Shown here: positions 2,320-62,275 of the stretch, piece after piece
Position numbering within the stretch: the stretch's first letter is position 1
Layout: each line of letters begins with the position of its first letter
IMG/VR virus record: IMGVR_UViG_3300007513_000015
Span: 1 to 64,000 of that record
DNA from: a virus
Length of the DNA stretch: 64,000 bases
Reading direction: 5' to 3' (one strand)
Notes under the pieces: generated by a model
Told to the model about the DNA's origin: nothing
The model's input: only the letters and a program-made list of their open reading frames with translations
The model's database searches: none
Position numbers and translations under genes: made by a program

Positions 2320-2883
2320 ATGAAATATACTAAAGAAATGATCAAAAAAGCTAGTCTGTTTGCGAGTGAAGCGCACTTAGGACAGTTCAGAAAGGGGGAA
2401 GAAGGGATACCTTATATCGTTCACCCTATTGCTGTTTTTGAAATTCTTCGTAGAAGTGGGGCTTCGGTTGAAGCCCAACTTGCTGGGATTCTCCACGATG
2501 TTGTTGAGGACACTAATCACTCTCTTGAAGATATCTCCTCTCGTTTCGGAACTTCTATCTCGTCTATTGTTGATTTTGTTTCCGAAGAGGATAAATCACT
2601 GAGTTGGAAGAAGCGTAAGATAGCGTATATTGAACGTCTGAAAAAAGCACCGTTTGATGCTGTATTTGTTTCTGCCGCAGACAAACTTCATAACTTACGC
2701 TCAACATTGATCGACTATGAGATTCACGGTGAAGAAGTTTGGTCAATGTTCAACAGTAAGAAAGATGGTCAATTCTGGTTCTATTCTACTCTGATTGACC
2801 TGTTTGAAGAGCGCGGAGTTAAACAATCACTTGTTGAAGAAATGCGTTCGATTGTTGAAGAAATTAAGTTGGAGTATGTATAA
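2320..2883 (+). CDS. HD-domain (p)ppGpp hydrolase-like protein (small alarmone hydrolase, SpoT/MESH1-like)
   Basis: This 187-residue protein consists of the HD hydrolase domain of the RelA/SpoT family without synthetase or regulatory domains, like stand-alone alarmone hydrolases. Visible motifs are FRKG near 23-26, PYIVHP with metal ligand His35, HDVVEDT with His59-Asp60, and AADKLHNLR near 121-129, which matches the family's ADKL-x-N motif. The expected reaction is Mn2+-dependent removal of the 3' pyrophosphate of (p)ppGpp, which would relieve a host stringent response; this is inferred from the family. A dedicated early promoter precedes it, and a late promoter for the tmRNA overlaps its last codon. 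Confidence 0.82.
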   Translation: MKYTKEMIKKASLFASEAHLGQFRKGEEGIPYIVHPIAVFEILRRSGASVEAQLAGILHDVVEDTNHSLEDISSRFGTSISSIVDFVSEEDKSLSWKKRKIAYIERLKKAPFDAVFVSAADKLHNLRSTLIDYEIHGEEVWSMFNSKKDGQFWFYSTLIDLFEERGVKQSLVEEMRSIVEEIKLEYV

Positions 2884-2886
2884 ATA
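2879..2886 (+). promoter_or_regulatory. T4-type late promoter upstream of the tmRNA
   Basis: An exact TATAAATA overlaps the stop codon of the HD gene. A start point 6-7 bases downstream (about 2893) would fall at the 5' edge of the tmRNA acceptor piece, so the tmRNA precursor looks late-transcribed. Confidence 0.65.
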
Positions 2887-2892
2887 GAATAC

Positions 2893-3200
2893 AAAACAGC
2901 GTAAAGTTATTATCGGAGAGATTCAAGACGTGGGTGCAATTCCCACCATCTCCACCAAAAACACATTCGAATGTAGGCTTCAAGCCTTGTGGCAATTGTC
3001 CTAGAGTGTGTTTTTGATGGGGATGACTTAGATTCGATTGGGTTGTCAAAGCTAATAATCGCTCGACCAAATTATACATATTTGTCGTAAAACTGAGTAT
3101 AAATAAATATAACTGCAAACGATAGTTATTACGCTCTAGCGGCCTGATTCGCTAGATGAGGATTTCGATAGGGTTACCTTATTACCAAATAACCCTATCA
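2893..3200 (+). ncRNA. ssrA: Circularly permuted (two-piece) tmRNA
   Basis: Transfer-messenger RNA, which rescues stalled ribosomes and tags the nascent peptide. The 3' tRNA half comes first: T arm GTGGG/CCCAC at 2930-2946 and acceptor strand CATCTCC plus ACCA at 2947-2957. An intervening loop closed by AAAAACACA/TGTGTTTTT (2957-2965 with 3007-3015) follows. The 5' half then begins GGGGATG at 3019-3025, pairing over all 7 bases (one G-U) with CATCTCC. Helix H2 forms from TAATAA-T-CGCT (3053-3063) and AGCG-TAAAG-TTATTA (2898-2912). The tag frame at 3115-3147 encodes ANDSYYALAA then TGA, with the stop in the loop of a CTAGCG/CGCTAG hairpin. A 10-bp hairpin at 3167-3199 may end the coding piece. 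Exact processed ends are not visible. A TATAAATA promoter lies directly upstream. Confidence 0.93.
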
Positions 3201-3285
3201 AGAATTAAAAAACCGTAACGGTTCAAGAAACTTTAAATTGTGATGTAAATATTTAACCAGTGATAAGCGTAAGAGTTAATATAAT

Positions 3286-3463
3286 ATCATAAATGTTTCT
3301 GAGTTAAGGGGAACCAGCAGATAGTTGAAAAACTAAACCCCCTATCGGAAGTTTACGGTGCTTCCGCCTAATTTGATGAGTAGATGCTTCGGGTCTATGA
3401 ATCGAATATAAAGTGGTACTTAATTAAGGCCACAAATTTTAACTCGCTTAATAGGAGAATATT
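3286..3463 (+). ncRNA. Structured non-coding segment / hsp20 leader, unassigned
   Basis: The stretch between the tmRNA and hsp20 has no convincing reading frame but holds several hairpins. GGGG (3308-3311) pairs with CCCC (3338-3341) around TAGTT-GAAA-AACTA (3322-3335, a GNRA-type tetraloop). CGGAAG (3346-3351) pairs with CTTCCG (3361-3366). A smaller TAGA/TCTA hairpin follows. A TATAAT at 3280-3285 without a clear -35 could start a transcript near 3292. It may be an hsp20 leader, perhaps temperature-sensing, or a further part of the tmRNA precursor. I could not match it to a known family. Confidence 0.45.
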
Positions 3464-3928
3464 ATGCAAAACAACAGACGCCTCTCGGCCCCCTCAGAAT
3501 TTTTCGGCCCTTGGATGAGTAATTCCCTCGGTCTCGATAATATCTTTGATTCATTGAATCAGTACGATACACCAAATCAAAAGTATCCCCCTTACAATAT
3601 CATAAAAGGCAAAGACCTCTATATGCTGGAGTTTGCTCTTTCTGGATGGAGAATGGAGGAATTATATATTGTTCACGAAAAGAATGTATTGACTGTTGAA
3701 GGTACGAAAACCGAAAAACCATATGATATGGAGGATGTAGAAATTCTACATAAAGGAATCGCGGATCGTTCTTTCACAAATAAGTTTACATTAGGAGATA
3801 ATGTTGAGGTAGTTAGTGCCGATCTTACTGACGGACTTCTATTGATTTATATGAATGTAATTGTTCCAAATGAAGATAAACCTAAAGAAATTCCTATCAC
3901 TAACAATCAACTGTTGCTAGAAGAGTAA
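3464..3928 (+). CDS. Small heat shock protein, Hsp20/alpha-crystallin family
   Basis: This 154-residue protein is an ATP-independent holdase chaperone by family. After a variable N-terminus, the alpha-crystallin domain covers about residues 42-140: PYNI..KG.D.Y.LEFAL at its start, LTVEGTKTEK in the middle, then RSFTNKFTL and DLTDGLLLIYM, the last matching the conserved A-x-L-x-x-G-(V/L)-L block. Phage Hsp20 homologues are common in marine T4-like viruses. AGGAG at 3452-3456 is its ribosome binding site. It follows a structured leader and ends at a bidirectional terminator. Confidence 0.92.
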   Translation: MQNNRRLSAPSEFFGPWMSNSLGLDNIFDSLNQYDTPNQKYPPYNIIKGKDLYMLEFALSGWRMEELYIVHEKNVLTVEGTKTEKPYDMEDVEILHKGIADRSFTNKFTLGDNVEVVSADLTDGLLLIYMNVIVPNEDKPKEIPITNNQLLLEE

Positions 3929-6763: not shown

Positions 6764-7039
6764 ATGAGTGTAATGATGCCATCAAATCCAGCTGATCTAA
6801 AGAAAATTGATACAGCACTTCAACAGATTTCAGATTCAATGACTCGAATTGAATCTGAACGTGATCACATCAAAGACGTTGTGGACACTATTCACGATGA
6901 ACAAGGTCTGCCGAAGAGATTAATCCGTCAGCTTGCTAAAGTGTGGCATATGCGTAACTTCGCTGAGGAAGTTACCGCCCAAGAAGATTTCCAGGACGCA
7001 TATGCTGCCCTAACAACAGTTAATAAACAACTAACTTAA
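6764..7039 (+). CDS. dsbA: DsbA-like dsDNA-binding late-transcription factor
   Basis: This 91-residue protein is close in length to T4 DsbA (89 aa), a double-stranded DNA-binding protein that binds near late promoters and enhances late transcription. The pattern fits: a helical N-terminal half (ISDSMTRIESERDHIKDVV) followed by a basic LPKRLIRQLAKVWH segment and an acidic, Ala-rich tail. It has its own early promoter and an AGGAG ribosome binding site. Its stop overlaps the stop of the convergent capsid-like gene by four bases. Assignment rests on pattern and length. Confidence 0.68.
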   Translation: MSVMMPSNPADLKKIDTALQQISDSMTRIESERDHIKDVVDTIHDEQGLPKRLIRQLAKVWHMRNFAEEVTAQEDFQDAYAALTTVNKQLT

Positions 7040-7920
7040 CTGATAGCGAACTTCATTAACATTTCCGCACCTGTTGTTGATAAAGGATTTACCACAGATG
7101 CGTATCTGTTAATGATGCCAACTCTTTGTTGGAATGATTCCACGTGAGTTGATGTAACAATCTCTTGCTTATAGTCACCAACAATAATTGAGGATGCACC
7201 TAGAGCAGTCTTATCATTTTCAACAAGACCAACATATGCTGTTGTAGATGCTGAATCTGGATTCACATAGTAAGTTGTCTTACCAAGTTTACTCACAACA
7301 AGACCACTCTTGTTATCTTCTCCACCACCAATATATTGGTTTAGAGTAGAAACTGATGCCGCGAACTTGTATGGAAGAATCACAAATGCATCATATGTGC
7401 GGAAGTTAGGAGTGTTCATTTTCAGAACAAGTTCCTGAACTCGTTGAGTGATTTCAAAAAGATTTGTTTCAGCATTTCCAGCATTCGTAAGTGTCAAAGC
7501 GGTAGTTGAAAGGGAGTTAGTAGAAAGGAAAGTCTCTAAAGCAGTGTTTTCTTCCTTGTCGATAATTCCACGAAGAAGATTTGCCGCAATTTTAATACCA
7601 TTCTCTTGATATTGATTGTGAAGATCCTGTAGAGCCTCAACAGAAATTCCAGTAGAAACAGGAGTGGCAGAGATACCATTTACATTCAATGTTGCCTGAA
7701 CAGTCTCATATGAGTTGGTGGCTCCATTTCTACGAATGTTGATAACTTTACCTGTCGATAACTTCATCGGAACAGTGGATGCAATCGAACGAAGTAGTGA
7801 TGCCGTTGGAAGTTCTTGGAATGCTTTAATAACATTGTTAAAACTAAAGTCTGCTGTACCTATATCAGATGCTTCTGTTGCTTCTTTTAGTCCTTCTGGA
7901 TTTGTGTTTTCAATAGTCAT
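7036..7920 (-). CDS. Capsid-like protein (gp23/gp24-related), possible vertex or decoration protein
   Basis: This 294-residue protein has the look of an HK97-fold capsid protein. Its last third (IIVGDYKQEIVTSTHV, then FQQRVGIINRYASVVNP) parallels the C-terminal region of T4 gp23/gp24 (attribution from memory). The central part has helices followed by Ala/Thr-rich strands. It is shorter than gp23 (521 aa) or gp24 (427 aa) and stands alone on the minus strand inside the early region, with its own late promoter at 7961-7968. It could be a vertex protein, a minor capsid paralogue or a decoration protein. Confidence 0.5.
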   Translation of the reverse strand: MTIENTNPEGLKEATEASDIGTADFSFNNVIKAFQELPTASLLRSIASTVPMKLSTGKVINIRRNGATNSYETVQATLNVNGISATPVSTGISVEALQDLHNQYQENGIKIAANLLRGIIDKEENTALETFLSTNSLSTTALTLTNAGNAETNLFEITQRVQELVLKMNTPNFRTYDAFVILPYKFAASVSTLNQYIGGGEDNKSGLVVSKLGKTTYYVNPDSASTTAYVGLVENDKTALGASSIIVGDYKQEIVTSTHVESFQQRVGIINRYASVVNPLSTTGAEMLMKFAIS

Positions 7921-58756: not shown

Positions 58757-60493
58757 ATGAGTCAGTGGATTGCGGGAATTGCTCTAGGGCATAATGCTGG
58801 CGTTTGTTTATTAAAAGATGGTGAAATTATTTTCTCTGTTGAGGAAGAAAGACTATCAAAGTTTAAGCACGACGGTGGTCCTCTTCTCAGTATGATGAAA
58901 ATCTTAGACTATACAGATAAACTTGATTATCTGATAATCTCTCATTTAATAGCTAATCCACAAGACATAAAAGAATACACGGTTTTAGAATATACTAGAG
59001 AACCTCTTTATCAAGGATTTGCCAGAAGATTAGGATTAATTGAACAATCAAAACCACTTGAAGAACAATCACCACAAGTTATCAATATGGTTGATAACCA
59101 TCATCAATGTCACTCCGCAATTGCTTTTTACAATTCTGGATTTCAGACAGCGGCGAGTGTTATTGTAGATAGCAATGGAAGTTCTAATATGTTGACGCCA
59201 AACGGAGAAATATATTATGAAACAGAATCTATTTTTGATTGTTCTTATACAAAAGGAATAAAAACATTATATAAAAAGGTTCATTGTACTAAGGGGAAAA
59301 GTTATTTATTACCAGACAATCATAATGCAGATTTGAACGAAACGTTTGAGTTAGAGGCTGATGAAGGTCCGGGCATTGGTAAAGTGTGGGATGCGGTCAC
59401 AGAGTTTTGTGGATTTCACGTAAACGAATGTGGAAAGACAATGGGATTATCTGCATACGGCGCACCAAACCCAAACTTACCAGACTTATTTCAAAATGAT
59501 ACTGCTAATAAAGATTTGATAAAAGCATTTTATCCATACAGATCCGAACTGAATACAAACAAATATAATATTTTAGATGTTTTGGAATCAGCCGATCAGG
59601 ATATGGCTTTCAAAGTACAAAAGGAAACCCAAGAACAAGTCTTAAAGTTAATTATCAAAGCATCCGAGATGAGTAACAATAAGAATGTGGTATTAAGTGG
59701 AGGCTATGCTCTCAATTGTGTTTCTAATTATTATTACTTGGATAAACTGAAAGAACACGATATTAATTTGTATGTAGAACCAAATTCGTCTGATGCTGGA
59801 ACTGCAACTGGTGCCGCCTTGTTATATCATTATCGAAAAGGTGATATAAATAAACGAAAAAGAATTGAGAGTTTATATCTAGGGCCGGAACAAAAGTATA
59901 CCGGTTACGATGTTTTTCAAATTATTGACAGTTACAATGGACAAGTGAATGATGCTTCATATAAAGAAATTGCCGAACTAATTAAAGAAGGAAATATAGT
60001 TGCTATATTTCAGGGTAGGTCTGAGATTGGACCTAGAGCATTAGGAAATAGAAGTATTTTGTTCAATCCAACCATAAAAAATGGCAAAGATATCGTAAAC
60101 AAAGTAAAGAAACGGGAATATTTTAGACCATTTGCCGCTTCAGTAATGAAAGAATATGCTCACGATTGGTTTGATATGAAAGGTTTAAAGGAGTCTCCTA
60201 ATATGATGTATGCTGTTAATGTTAAAGAAGATAAGAAAAATTTAATACCAGCAGTTTTACACGTAGATGATACTTGCAGAATACAGACCGTTAATAAAAA
60301 TGTAAATGAACATTATTATAATCTCATTGAGGAGTTTTATAAATTAACAGGTATACCGTTATTGTTCAATACTTCATTGAATCTAGCAGGAGATCCTTTA
60401 GCGGAAACTCTTAATGATGTGATGGAAATTTTAACCGATTCGGAAATAGAATATTGTTATATGCCCGAACACGCAACTTTAATTAAATTATAA
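58757..60493 (+). CDS. NodU/CmcH-family carbamoyltransferase, copy 1
   Basis: The 578-residue protein has the two-domain layout of this family (TobZ, NodU, CmcH). An N-terminal ASKHA/Kae1-like domain shows GHNAGVCLLKDGEIIFSVEEERLS (9-32), NHHQCHSAIAF with metal-binding His, VVLSGGYALNCVSNYYY and EPNSSDAGTATGAAL. A C-terminal domain shows SEIGPRALGNRSILFNP and KREYFRPFAASVM. By family it makes carbamoyl-adenylate from carbamoyl phosphate and ATP and carbamoylates a hydroxyl group on a sugar or base. A second copy follows. Context with heptose genes suggests a heptose hydroxyl; cytosine modification is the alternative. Confidence 0.9.
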   Translation: MSQWIAGIALGHNAGVCLLKDGEIIFSVEEERLSKFKHDGGPLLSMMKILDYTDKLDYLIISHLIANPQDIKEYTVLEYTREPLYQGFARRLGLIEQSKPLEEQSPQVINMVDNHHQCHSAIAFYNSGFQTAASVIVDSNGSSNMLTPNGEIYYETESIFDCSYTKGIKTLYKKVHCTKGKSYLLPDNHNADLNETFELEADEGPGIGKVWDAVTEFCGFHVNECGKTMGLSAYGAPNPNLPDLFQNDTANKDLIKAFYPYRSELNTNKYNILDVLESADQDMAFKVQKETQEQVLKLIIKASEMSNNKNVVLSGGYALNCVSNYYYLDKLKEHDINLYVEPNSSDAGTATGAALLYHYRKGDINKRKRIESLYLGPEQKYTGYDVFQIIDSYNGQVNDASYKEIAELIKEGNIVAIFQGRSEIGPRALGNRSILFNPTIKNGKDIVNKVKKREYFRPFAASVMKEYAHDWFDMKGLKESPNMMYAVNVKEDKKNLIPAVLHVDDTCRIQTVNKNVNEHYYNLIEEFYKLTGIPLLFNTSLNLAGDPLAETLNDVMEILTDSEIEYCYMPEHATLIKL

Positions 60494-60502
60494 GGATAAA
60501 AT

Positions 60503-62275
60503 ATGAGTCAGTGGATTGCGGGAATTGCTCGAGGACATAATGGCGGTATTTGTCTTTTGAAAGATGGTGAAATTGTTTTTGCTATTGAAGAAGAAAGACT
60601 ATCCCGAAGAAAATATGATGGTGGACCATTTGCATCTATAGTCAAAATTCTTGATTATACAGATAAACTAGATTATCTTGTAATATCACACACACAATCA
60701 GATGAAAGTCGTGTTGACTTTTCTGGTGATAATGTATATGCTGGTCTAGCGAGAAAACTTCGATTGATTGAATCAGAAGATCAAATTATTGATATGCATA
60801 AATGGCATCATAAAATGCACGCCGCTTGTGCTTTCTATCGTTCTGGTTTTGAATCCGCAACAGCATTGATTGTTGATGGAGCTGGCACGTTTATTCCAAT
60901 GAATATTAATATGCAACAAGAAATGACTTGGGAACTTGAAACGATTTTTGATTGTAAGTATCCGGCAGACTTCAAAACTCTTTATAAGCATCAAGGCGGG
61001 AGAGGCCCTTGGACATCTGCTCATTACACTGATATGGATTCAGAAAGAGAAGGTGAAGAAGGCACGCACGAAATGATTCTTGATGATAGTGCAGGTATTG
61101 TAAAAGCGTATGAAGCAGTAACACAATATTGTGGCTGGCAACCAATCGAGGCGGGTAAGACTATGGGGCTGTTTCCGTATGGTAAGCCGAATGATAATAT
61201 TCCTGATATCTATACAGATGGGAATGGTGGTGATTGGAAAACAACAGATAGAAATGTAATTATTCCAACATATCCCAATGGCGCGCTTGTTAACGCAGGA
61301 AGATATAAAGAATTGAGAGAGTGGAATGATGGGGATGTAACATTGCTCCAAAATCGTAGAGATATGGCATATGCGATTCAAACTGAATCGCAAGCTATGG
61401 TTCTTGATTTGATTCGTAAAGCAGTCGATAAGAGTGGAAATAAAAATGTAGTTCTTTCTGGTGGATATGGTTTGAATTGTGTAGCAAATTATTGGTATCT
61501 TGAGCAATTGAAAGATGAAGATATCAATCTATATGTTGAACCAATTTCAAATGATGCAGGAACAGCAGTTGGAGCGGCAATGTTAGCATATCATTCTATA
61601 ACAAAAGATAATAATGTACGTCCTTTTGGTGAGTCATTATTCCTTGGTCCTGTACAGAAGAACACTACAGAAGAGATTGTTGAGATTGCAAAGAATTATG
61701 GTGCAACTGGTGTATTTGATAAGCAGTATGCTCCTGATGCAGTTAAGTTGATTTTGAAAGGGAATATAGTAACACTATTCCAGGATAGATGTGAGAATGG
61801 GCCGAGAGCATTGGGCAACCGTTCTATTCTCTTTGATCCTCGTACGCTTGATGGTAAAGACTACGTGAATAAAGTCAAGCATAGAGAATACTTCCGCCCA
61901 TTTGCTGGTTCAATCTTACACGAACACGCACACGAATGGTTTGATATGAGAGGGCTTGAAGAGTCTCCACATATGATGTATGCTATGAATTGCGCTTCTG
62001 ATGAATATGCAGAACAGATTCCAGCAATCATTCACGTTGATGGTACTTGTAGAATTCAGACTGTAAAGGAACATCAAAATCCAGTCTATTATGAAATGAT
62101 TGACCACTTCTACAAAGAAACTGGAGTACCAATTCTTTTCAATACTTCTTTCAATCTTGGTGGTGAACCGCTTGTTGAAACGATTGATGATGCGATTCGT
62201 ACCCTTGCTAATAGTGATATTGAATATCTTTATATTCCAGATAATGATCTAATAATTGAGGTGAAAAACAAATGA
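60503..62275 (+). CDS. NodU/CmcH-family carbamoyltransferase, copy 2
   Basis: The 590-residue protein is a paralogue of the preceding gene. The first 28 bases of the two genes are identical, and both share the motifs GHNGGICLLKDGEIVFAIEEERLS, WHHKMHAACAF, VVLSGGYGLNCVANYWY, EPISNDAGTAVGAAML, CENGPRALGNRSILFDP and KHREYFRPFAGSI. The N-terminal insert regions differ (about 60-200), so the two may act on different acceptors or as a pair. Its stop overlaps the start of the HldD-like gene by four bases (ATGA). Confidence 0.9.
   Translation: MSQWIAGIARGHNGGICLLKDGEIVFAIEEERLSRRKYDGGPFASIVKILDYTDKLDYLVISHTQSDESRVDFSGDNVYAGLARKLRLIESEDQIIDMHKWHHKMHAACAFYRSGFESATALIVDGAGTFIPMNINMQQEMTWELETIFDCKYPADFKTLYKHQGGRGPWTSAHYTDMDSEREGEEGTHEMILDDSAGIVKAYEAVTQYCGWQPIEAGKTMGLFPYGKPNDNIPDIYTDGNGGDWKTTDRNVIIPTYPNGALVNAGRYKELREWNDGDVTLLQNRRDMAYAIQTESQAMVLDLIRKAVDKSGNKNVVLSGGYGLNCVANYWYLEQLKDEDINLYVEPISNDAGTAVGAAMLAYHSITKDNNVRPFGESLFLGPVQKNTTEEIVEIAKNYGATGVFDKQYAPDAVKLILKGNIVTLFQDRCENGPRALGNRSILFDPRTLDGKDYVNKVKHREYFRPFAGSILHEHAHEWFDMRGLEESPHMMYAMNCASDEYAEQIPAIIHVDGTCRIQTVKEHQNPVYYEMIDHFYKETGVPILFNTSFNLGGEPLVETIDDAIRTLANSDIEYLYIPDNDLIIEVKNK

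Follow-up and report, generated by a model that had tools for sequence, protein, structure and literature searches.

Sequence comparisons confirm an earlier observation on the viral DNA studied here (hereafter the earlier note), namely that the window, a stretch of 64,000 nucleotides forming part of a 99,126-base IMG/VR virus record, carries the predicted gene of a circularly permuted, two-piece transfer-messenger RNA (tmRNA) of a T4-like phage. In bacteria, tmRNA releases stalled ribosomes and marks their incomplete proteins for destruction. A two-piece phage tmRNA was published for the phage Melnitz in 2022, as the earlier note had correctly stated, and the authors of that work reported 53 such RNAs in the phage genomes of early 2021 (PMC9004378); a curated model of permuted tmRNA also exists (PMC11915505). 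Phage two-piece tmRNA is therefore already known and the window gene is a further, divergent example.

Covariance searches with the Rfam models of permuted tmRNAs, which the earlier note had named as a test that could refute it, bore the identification out. The match to RF04321 (tmRNA_permuted) extends over window positions 2898–3147 on the plus strand, covers the whole model (positions 1–213 of 213) and reaches 99.3 bits, the cut-off being 47 (E = 4e-18 for the window). RF01849 (alpha_tmRNA) also exceeded its cut-off (57.6 versus 50 bits), with only positions 40–268 of the 355 in the model being covered. RF01850 (beta_tmRNA) remained slightly below its cut-off (78.8 versus 84 bits), yet its alignment to window 2849–3200 spans the entire model. 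The minimum-energy fold of the tmRNA region has a z-score of −4.9. ARAGORN, when run on the window, called no tmRNA. A separate IMG/VR contig of 10 kb, obtained from a different sample, contains an identical copy of the region (100% identity over 10,334 bp).

All elements of the RNA described in the earlier note were found at or near the positions it gave, in the permuted order, with the CCA-bearing 3′ half located 5′ of the 5′ half. The acceptor (tRNA-like 3′) piece comes first in the gene and is delimited by the RF04321 match and the sequence itself to 2898–2957 (plus strand, as are all features of the RNA), its start being approximate. It comprises the T-arm (2930–2946; RF04321 match and sequence) with the loop TGCAATT, the 3′ strand of the acceptor stem, CATCTCC (2947–2953), and an encoded ACCA (2954–2957, with CCA at 2955–2957). 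The T-loop has a G where standard T-loops have U55, a feature common among viral permuted tmRNAs. A 61-nt intervening sequence (2958–3018), recognised from the fold, the sequence and the comparison of loci, separates the acceptor piece from the 5′ acceptor strand GGGGATG (3019–3025). The earlier note was right that this spacer is closed by a stem, the length of which is 11 bp (2958–2968/3004–3014; AAAACACATTC/GAGTGTGTTTT) rather than the 9 bp it had stated. Pairing of CATCTCC with GGGGATG yields the seven acceptor base pairs claimed, including a G·U at the third. This G3·U70 is the alanine identity pair of alanine tRNA and tmRNA. The acceptor stem continues almost without a break into the spacer stem in the minimum-energy fold, so that the two make up a single long helix.

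The coding (mRNA-like) piece occupies 3019–3200, where the 3′ end is approximate (the RF04321 alignment extends to 3147 and that of RF01850 to 3200). The tag reading frame (3115–3147) starts with a GCA resume codon and encodes ANDSYYALAA, the C-terminus of which is hydrophobic, followed by TGA; the stop codon lies, as had been claimed, in the loop of a hairpin (helix 5; 3135–3156) with a 7-bp stem (3135–3141/3150–3156). The tag of Escherichia coli is AANDENYALAA. Further downstream, a 10-bp hairpin (3167–3199), supported by the RF01850 alignment, the fold and the sequence, exposes the loop CCTTATTACCAAA, which matches the post-tag region of beta-type tmRNA (CCUUnUUACCAAA) and falls inside the RF01850 alignment.

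In order to place the gene among other viral sequences, IMG/VR was scanned with a pattern describing the T-arm followed by CCA, which retrieved at least 120 contigs. Among the matches listed, the permuted order, with the 5′ half downstream, was present in 67 loci, and all 40 viral relatives tested exceeded the RF04321 cut-off. Fifty-three dereplicated viral loci from the matches listed, including that of the window, were then compared. Three pairs of the acceptor and T-stems had not been fixed by the search pattern, and these are Watson–Crick in 53 of 53 loci, with three to four pair types each; G3·U70 was imposed by the pattern and is therefore not evidence from the viral set, whereas the free acceptor pair covaries. 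Such compensatory changes in the acceptor and T-stem favour a real RNA structure beyond what chance would be expected to give. In most of the 53 loci the spacer contains a stem of 9–14 bp that opens no more than 2 bases after CCA and closes 3–6 bases before the 5′ acceptor strand. The nearest sampled viral tmRNA is 61% identical to the window copy, which sits on a long branch of the tmRNA tree, its placement being without support. The middle of the viral tags varies and, among the matches listed, a few tags end in MAA, ANA or IAA. Highly divergent phages retain the permuted tmRNA even as its flanking genes change.

Structural and replication proteins of T4 type are encoded on the contig, the capsid protein of which is closest to those of HTVC008M (54% identity), Melnitz (53%), DLP6 (52%) and Mosig (50%). 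All four of these phages possess a permuted tmRNA and lack a recognisable SmpB. No permuted tmRNA was present in C48C1, XG4 and S-BM3, the three other phages tested from the capsid list. The permuted tmRNA looks like a shared trait of the HTVC008M/Melnitz/DLP6 group. In the GenBank records of HTVC008M, DLP6, Mendera and X1 the permuted tmRNA copies are unannotated; these being cultured phages, tests in culture are feasible. The tmRNA genes of Mendera and DLP6 are located in or adjoining tRNA clusters. Searches for SmpB in the window's contig and 17 other phage records revealed no recognisable homologue, while the control genomes gave matches. The contig is a 99-kb fragment of a genome and the complete genomes of its relatives lack SmpB; therefore, unless the missing part of the genome differs, the phage RNA would use the SmpB of the host.

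Comparison with known systems places the window gene closest to that of Melnitz (MZ577097; PMC9004378), a T4-like phage from the broad group to which the window's phage also belongs. The two genes share the permuted form, the lack of a detectable phage SmpB, the sequence TATAAATA directly upstream and a tag ending in ALAA. They differ in the tag (ANDNYVPVDYALAA in Melnitz versus ANDSYYALAA), in the −35 element (a full TTGACA in Melnitz, at most a weak one in the window) and in genomic context: the Melnitz gene, reported together with a glutamine riboswitch, adjoins the late coactivator gene and has thyX nearby, whereas that of the window is flanked by an alarmone-hydrolase-like gene and hsp20. 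The Pelagibacter phages HTVC008M and Mosig likewise have the permuted form along with capsid proteins 50–54% identical to that of the window, but other neighbouring genes. The HTVC008M RNA has a similar T-arm (GGGTGCAAT) and the tag ANFNEYALAA, passes the alpha model at 83.8 bits and shows no TATAAAT box directly upstream of the gene; it is unannotated in NC_020484, whereas the Mosig tmRNA is annotated. As to the bacterial lineages, the window RNA aligns to the whole beta model (RF01850), including the CCUUnUUACCAAA loop after the tag, but one genome from a Pseudomonadota sample, taken as a true beta member, scores 251 against 78.8 for the window; the match to the alpha lineage (RF01849), as given above, is partial in model coverage.

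The earlier note had placed a T4 late promoter directly upstream of the gene. A box of this type, TATAAATA, is indeed located at 2879–2886 (plus strand), as revealed by motif search and by the conservation of its position in relatives. The window contains 17 such boxes versus 7.2 expected, and ten of the 17 lie in intergenic gaps at most 71 bp from the start of a gene on the same strand. Genes for a gp55-like late sigma factor (phrog_234, 5.7e-62) and a sliding clamp are present on the contig. Owing to this over-representation, the proximity to gene starts and the presence of the sigma factor and the clamp, the boxes are credible late promoters. A possible weak sigma70 −35 element, TTGAAG (2855–2860, plus strand; 4 of 6 matches), precedes TATAAA by 18 nt, and is not significant on its own (total score 9/12 with N18, p about 0.25). 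The window gene keeps the late box but at most a weak −35. Exclusively late timing is uncertain, since in most relatives with the box the promoter seems both early and late.

When 130 nt upstream of the 53 viral loci were inspected, exact TATAAATA was found in nine loci between −47 and −53 relative to the GGG of the T-stem, and in one other at −73. A second scan, allowing TATAAATA at any offset of 41–68, yielded 70 dereplicated sites among the matches listed, including that of the window. In 62 of these the distance from the box to the GGG of the T-stem is 46–52 nt (53 in the window), and a permuted 5′ half follows in 63 of the 70. Of the 70 sites, 53 have a sigma70 −35 with at least five of six matches 16–18 nt ahead of the shared −10, compared to 9 of 77 other TATAAATA boxes of the same loci and to about 3% in shuffled sequences. 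The reverse selection, for TTGACA-N16–18-TAT upstream of a second T-arm type, returned 58 dereplicated sites among the matches listed, 35 of which contain TATAAATA. Many of the IMG/VR loci behind these promoter counts are related, so that the counts do not equal independent origins; on the tmRNA tree the late-box label requires five changes, with poor support. The comparison with the other boxes shows that the pairing of a −35 with a late box is unusual, which does not in itself imply use by both sigma factors: TATAAA is near the sigma70 −10 consensus and a strong sigma70 promoter can therefore resemble a late box.

The sequence upstream of the Melnitz tmRNA is TTGACA-N17-TATAAATA, that is, a sigma70 −35 plus the full T4 late box; the Melnitz paper calls this promoter early and infers early action of the RNA (PMC9004378). 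Taken together, the promoter comparisons leave evenly balanced the proposition that many phage two-piece tmRNA genes share a sigma70 and a T4 late promoter fused on one −10 at a fixed distance from the gene, with the tmRNA being made both early and late, and that in the window version the late half is preserved but most of the early half is gone. No published description of this fused design was found in a partial literature search, and the recurrent composite promoter across IMG/VR may be the new part of the present analysis. The putative fused promoter gives a concrete indication, open to experiment, that phages need the RNA during the whole of infection, and would revise the published early-only reading of Melnitz.

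From the layout of the gene, the tag, the structure and the lack of a recognisable phage SmpB, we infer how the RNA would be processed, charged, timed and of benefit. A single transcript would start just upstream of 2898, mainly via the late promoter, and its acceptor half (2898–2957) and coding half (3019 to about 3200) would share the acceptor stem and helix H2. Removal of the spacer by host tRNA-processing enzymes would yield two molecules, an acceptor RNA ending in CCA and a coding RNA. The alanyl-tRNA synthetase of the host would charge the acceptor via G3·U70 and host SmpB would deliver it to stalled ribosomes, which would move to the GCA resume codon, add ANDSYYALAA and be released. The tagged products would be directed to ClpXP; degradation is expected because the tag keeps the SspB/ClpX(P) positions of the E. 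coli tag (AND...Y...LAA). The phage would most likely gain from the return to service of ribosomes stalled on broken messages, mainly late in infection. It is very probable, in our judgement, that the gene encodes such a functional two-piece tmRNA, which uses AlaRS and SmpB of the host and keeps ribosomes in circulation.

Two other readings of the intact gene are less likely than ribosome rescue. The phage might profit from the tag itself, through redirected or increased degradation of particular proteins, for example in the recycling of host proteins, rather than from the freeing of ribosomes. Such a role has been proposed as an alternative for Melnitz (PMC9004378), and the variable middle of the viral tags, as well as the few MAA, ANA and IAA ends, would fit with it. 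The tag in the window, however, is almost that of E. coli, with both the AND and the LAA ends kept, and should act like the tag of the host; we regard a tag-driven role as rather improbable here. The chances are slimmer still that the gene is a passenger, i.e., a bacterial ssrA that is intact in sequence and either unexpressed or without benefit to the phage. Host ssrA genes are integration sites of prophages, in which ssrA fragments occur (PMC9004378), and the long branch of the window copy is compatible with such an origin. Nevertheless, every structural part of the RNA is intact, the promoter box stands at a distance conserved among relatives, and permuted tmRNAs persist in phages of great divergence despite the turnover of their neighbours. 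As for a chance tRNA-like sequence or an assembly artefact, the silence of ARAGORN is outweighed by the covariance match over 213 model positions and by the identical separate contig; this reading, of vanishingly small probability, is already refuted.

The YALAA-type tag, which the earlier note had likened to those of beta- and gammaproteobacteria, is present but is not diagnostic of the host group, since many viral two-piece tmRNAs carry similar tags. Assignment of a host from the tag or the T-loop was accordingly dropped: both YALAA-type tags and the GGGTGC T-arm recur widely among viral permuted tmRNAs, and genomes of many bacterial phyla contain this arm together with CCA. The beta model was also abandoned as a pointer to the host, with 24 of 40 viral relatives exceeding the RF01850 cut-off; 92 bits on this model were reached by a phage whose host, Stenotrophomonas, belongs to the gammaproteobacteria.

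Upstream of the tmRNA gene, and not part of the RNA, lies a gene (2320–2883, plus strand) the stop codon of which overlaps the late-promoter box. Its 187-aa product is a small alarmone ((p)ppGpp) hydrolase-like HD protein (Pfam HD_4, 2.6e-18), related in phmmer searches to the guanosine polyphosphate pyrophosphohydrolase-type PDB entries 7qoe, 7qoc and 4yf1, and to MESH1; it might reduce the (p)ppGpp level of infected cells. Conserved pairing of an alarmone hydrolase gene with the tmRNA was considered and rejected: the HD-type proteins near the tmRNAs of Mendera and X1 match other HD families, that of X1 does not align with the window protein, and no alarmone-hydrolase-like neighbour was found in the other loci of the viral set among the matches listed.

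Downstream, an Hsp20 small heat-shock protein is encoded at 3464–3928 (plus strand; Pfam HSP20, 3.3e-13; phrog_432). Among the matches listed, hsp20 is near a permuted tmRNA in four other loci of the viral set, directly downstream in one (L041) and upstream in L013 and L052; a link between the two genes is only suggestive. The untranslated stretch between the tmRNA and hsp20 (3205–3463, plus strand), which does not form part of the tmRNA claim, adopts a multi-branched predicted fold closed by GAGTTA/TAACTC (z = −2.9). It matches no Rfam family, its only relatives are in near-identical contigs, and it is possibly an undescribed RNA element. An RNA thermometer before hsp20 was rejected, the GGAG site being in an open loop. 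Elsewhere in the window, an apparent tandem duplication comprises two neighbouring genes (58757–60493 and 60503–62275) that belong to the Nol-like carbamoyltransferase family (phrog_1601). Finally, the product of 7036–7920 (minus strand) displays weak similarity to a major head protein family and, with the main capsid gene being located further along the contig, is perhaps a second capsid-related protein.
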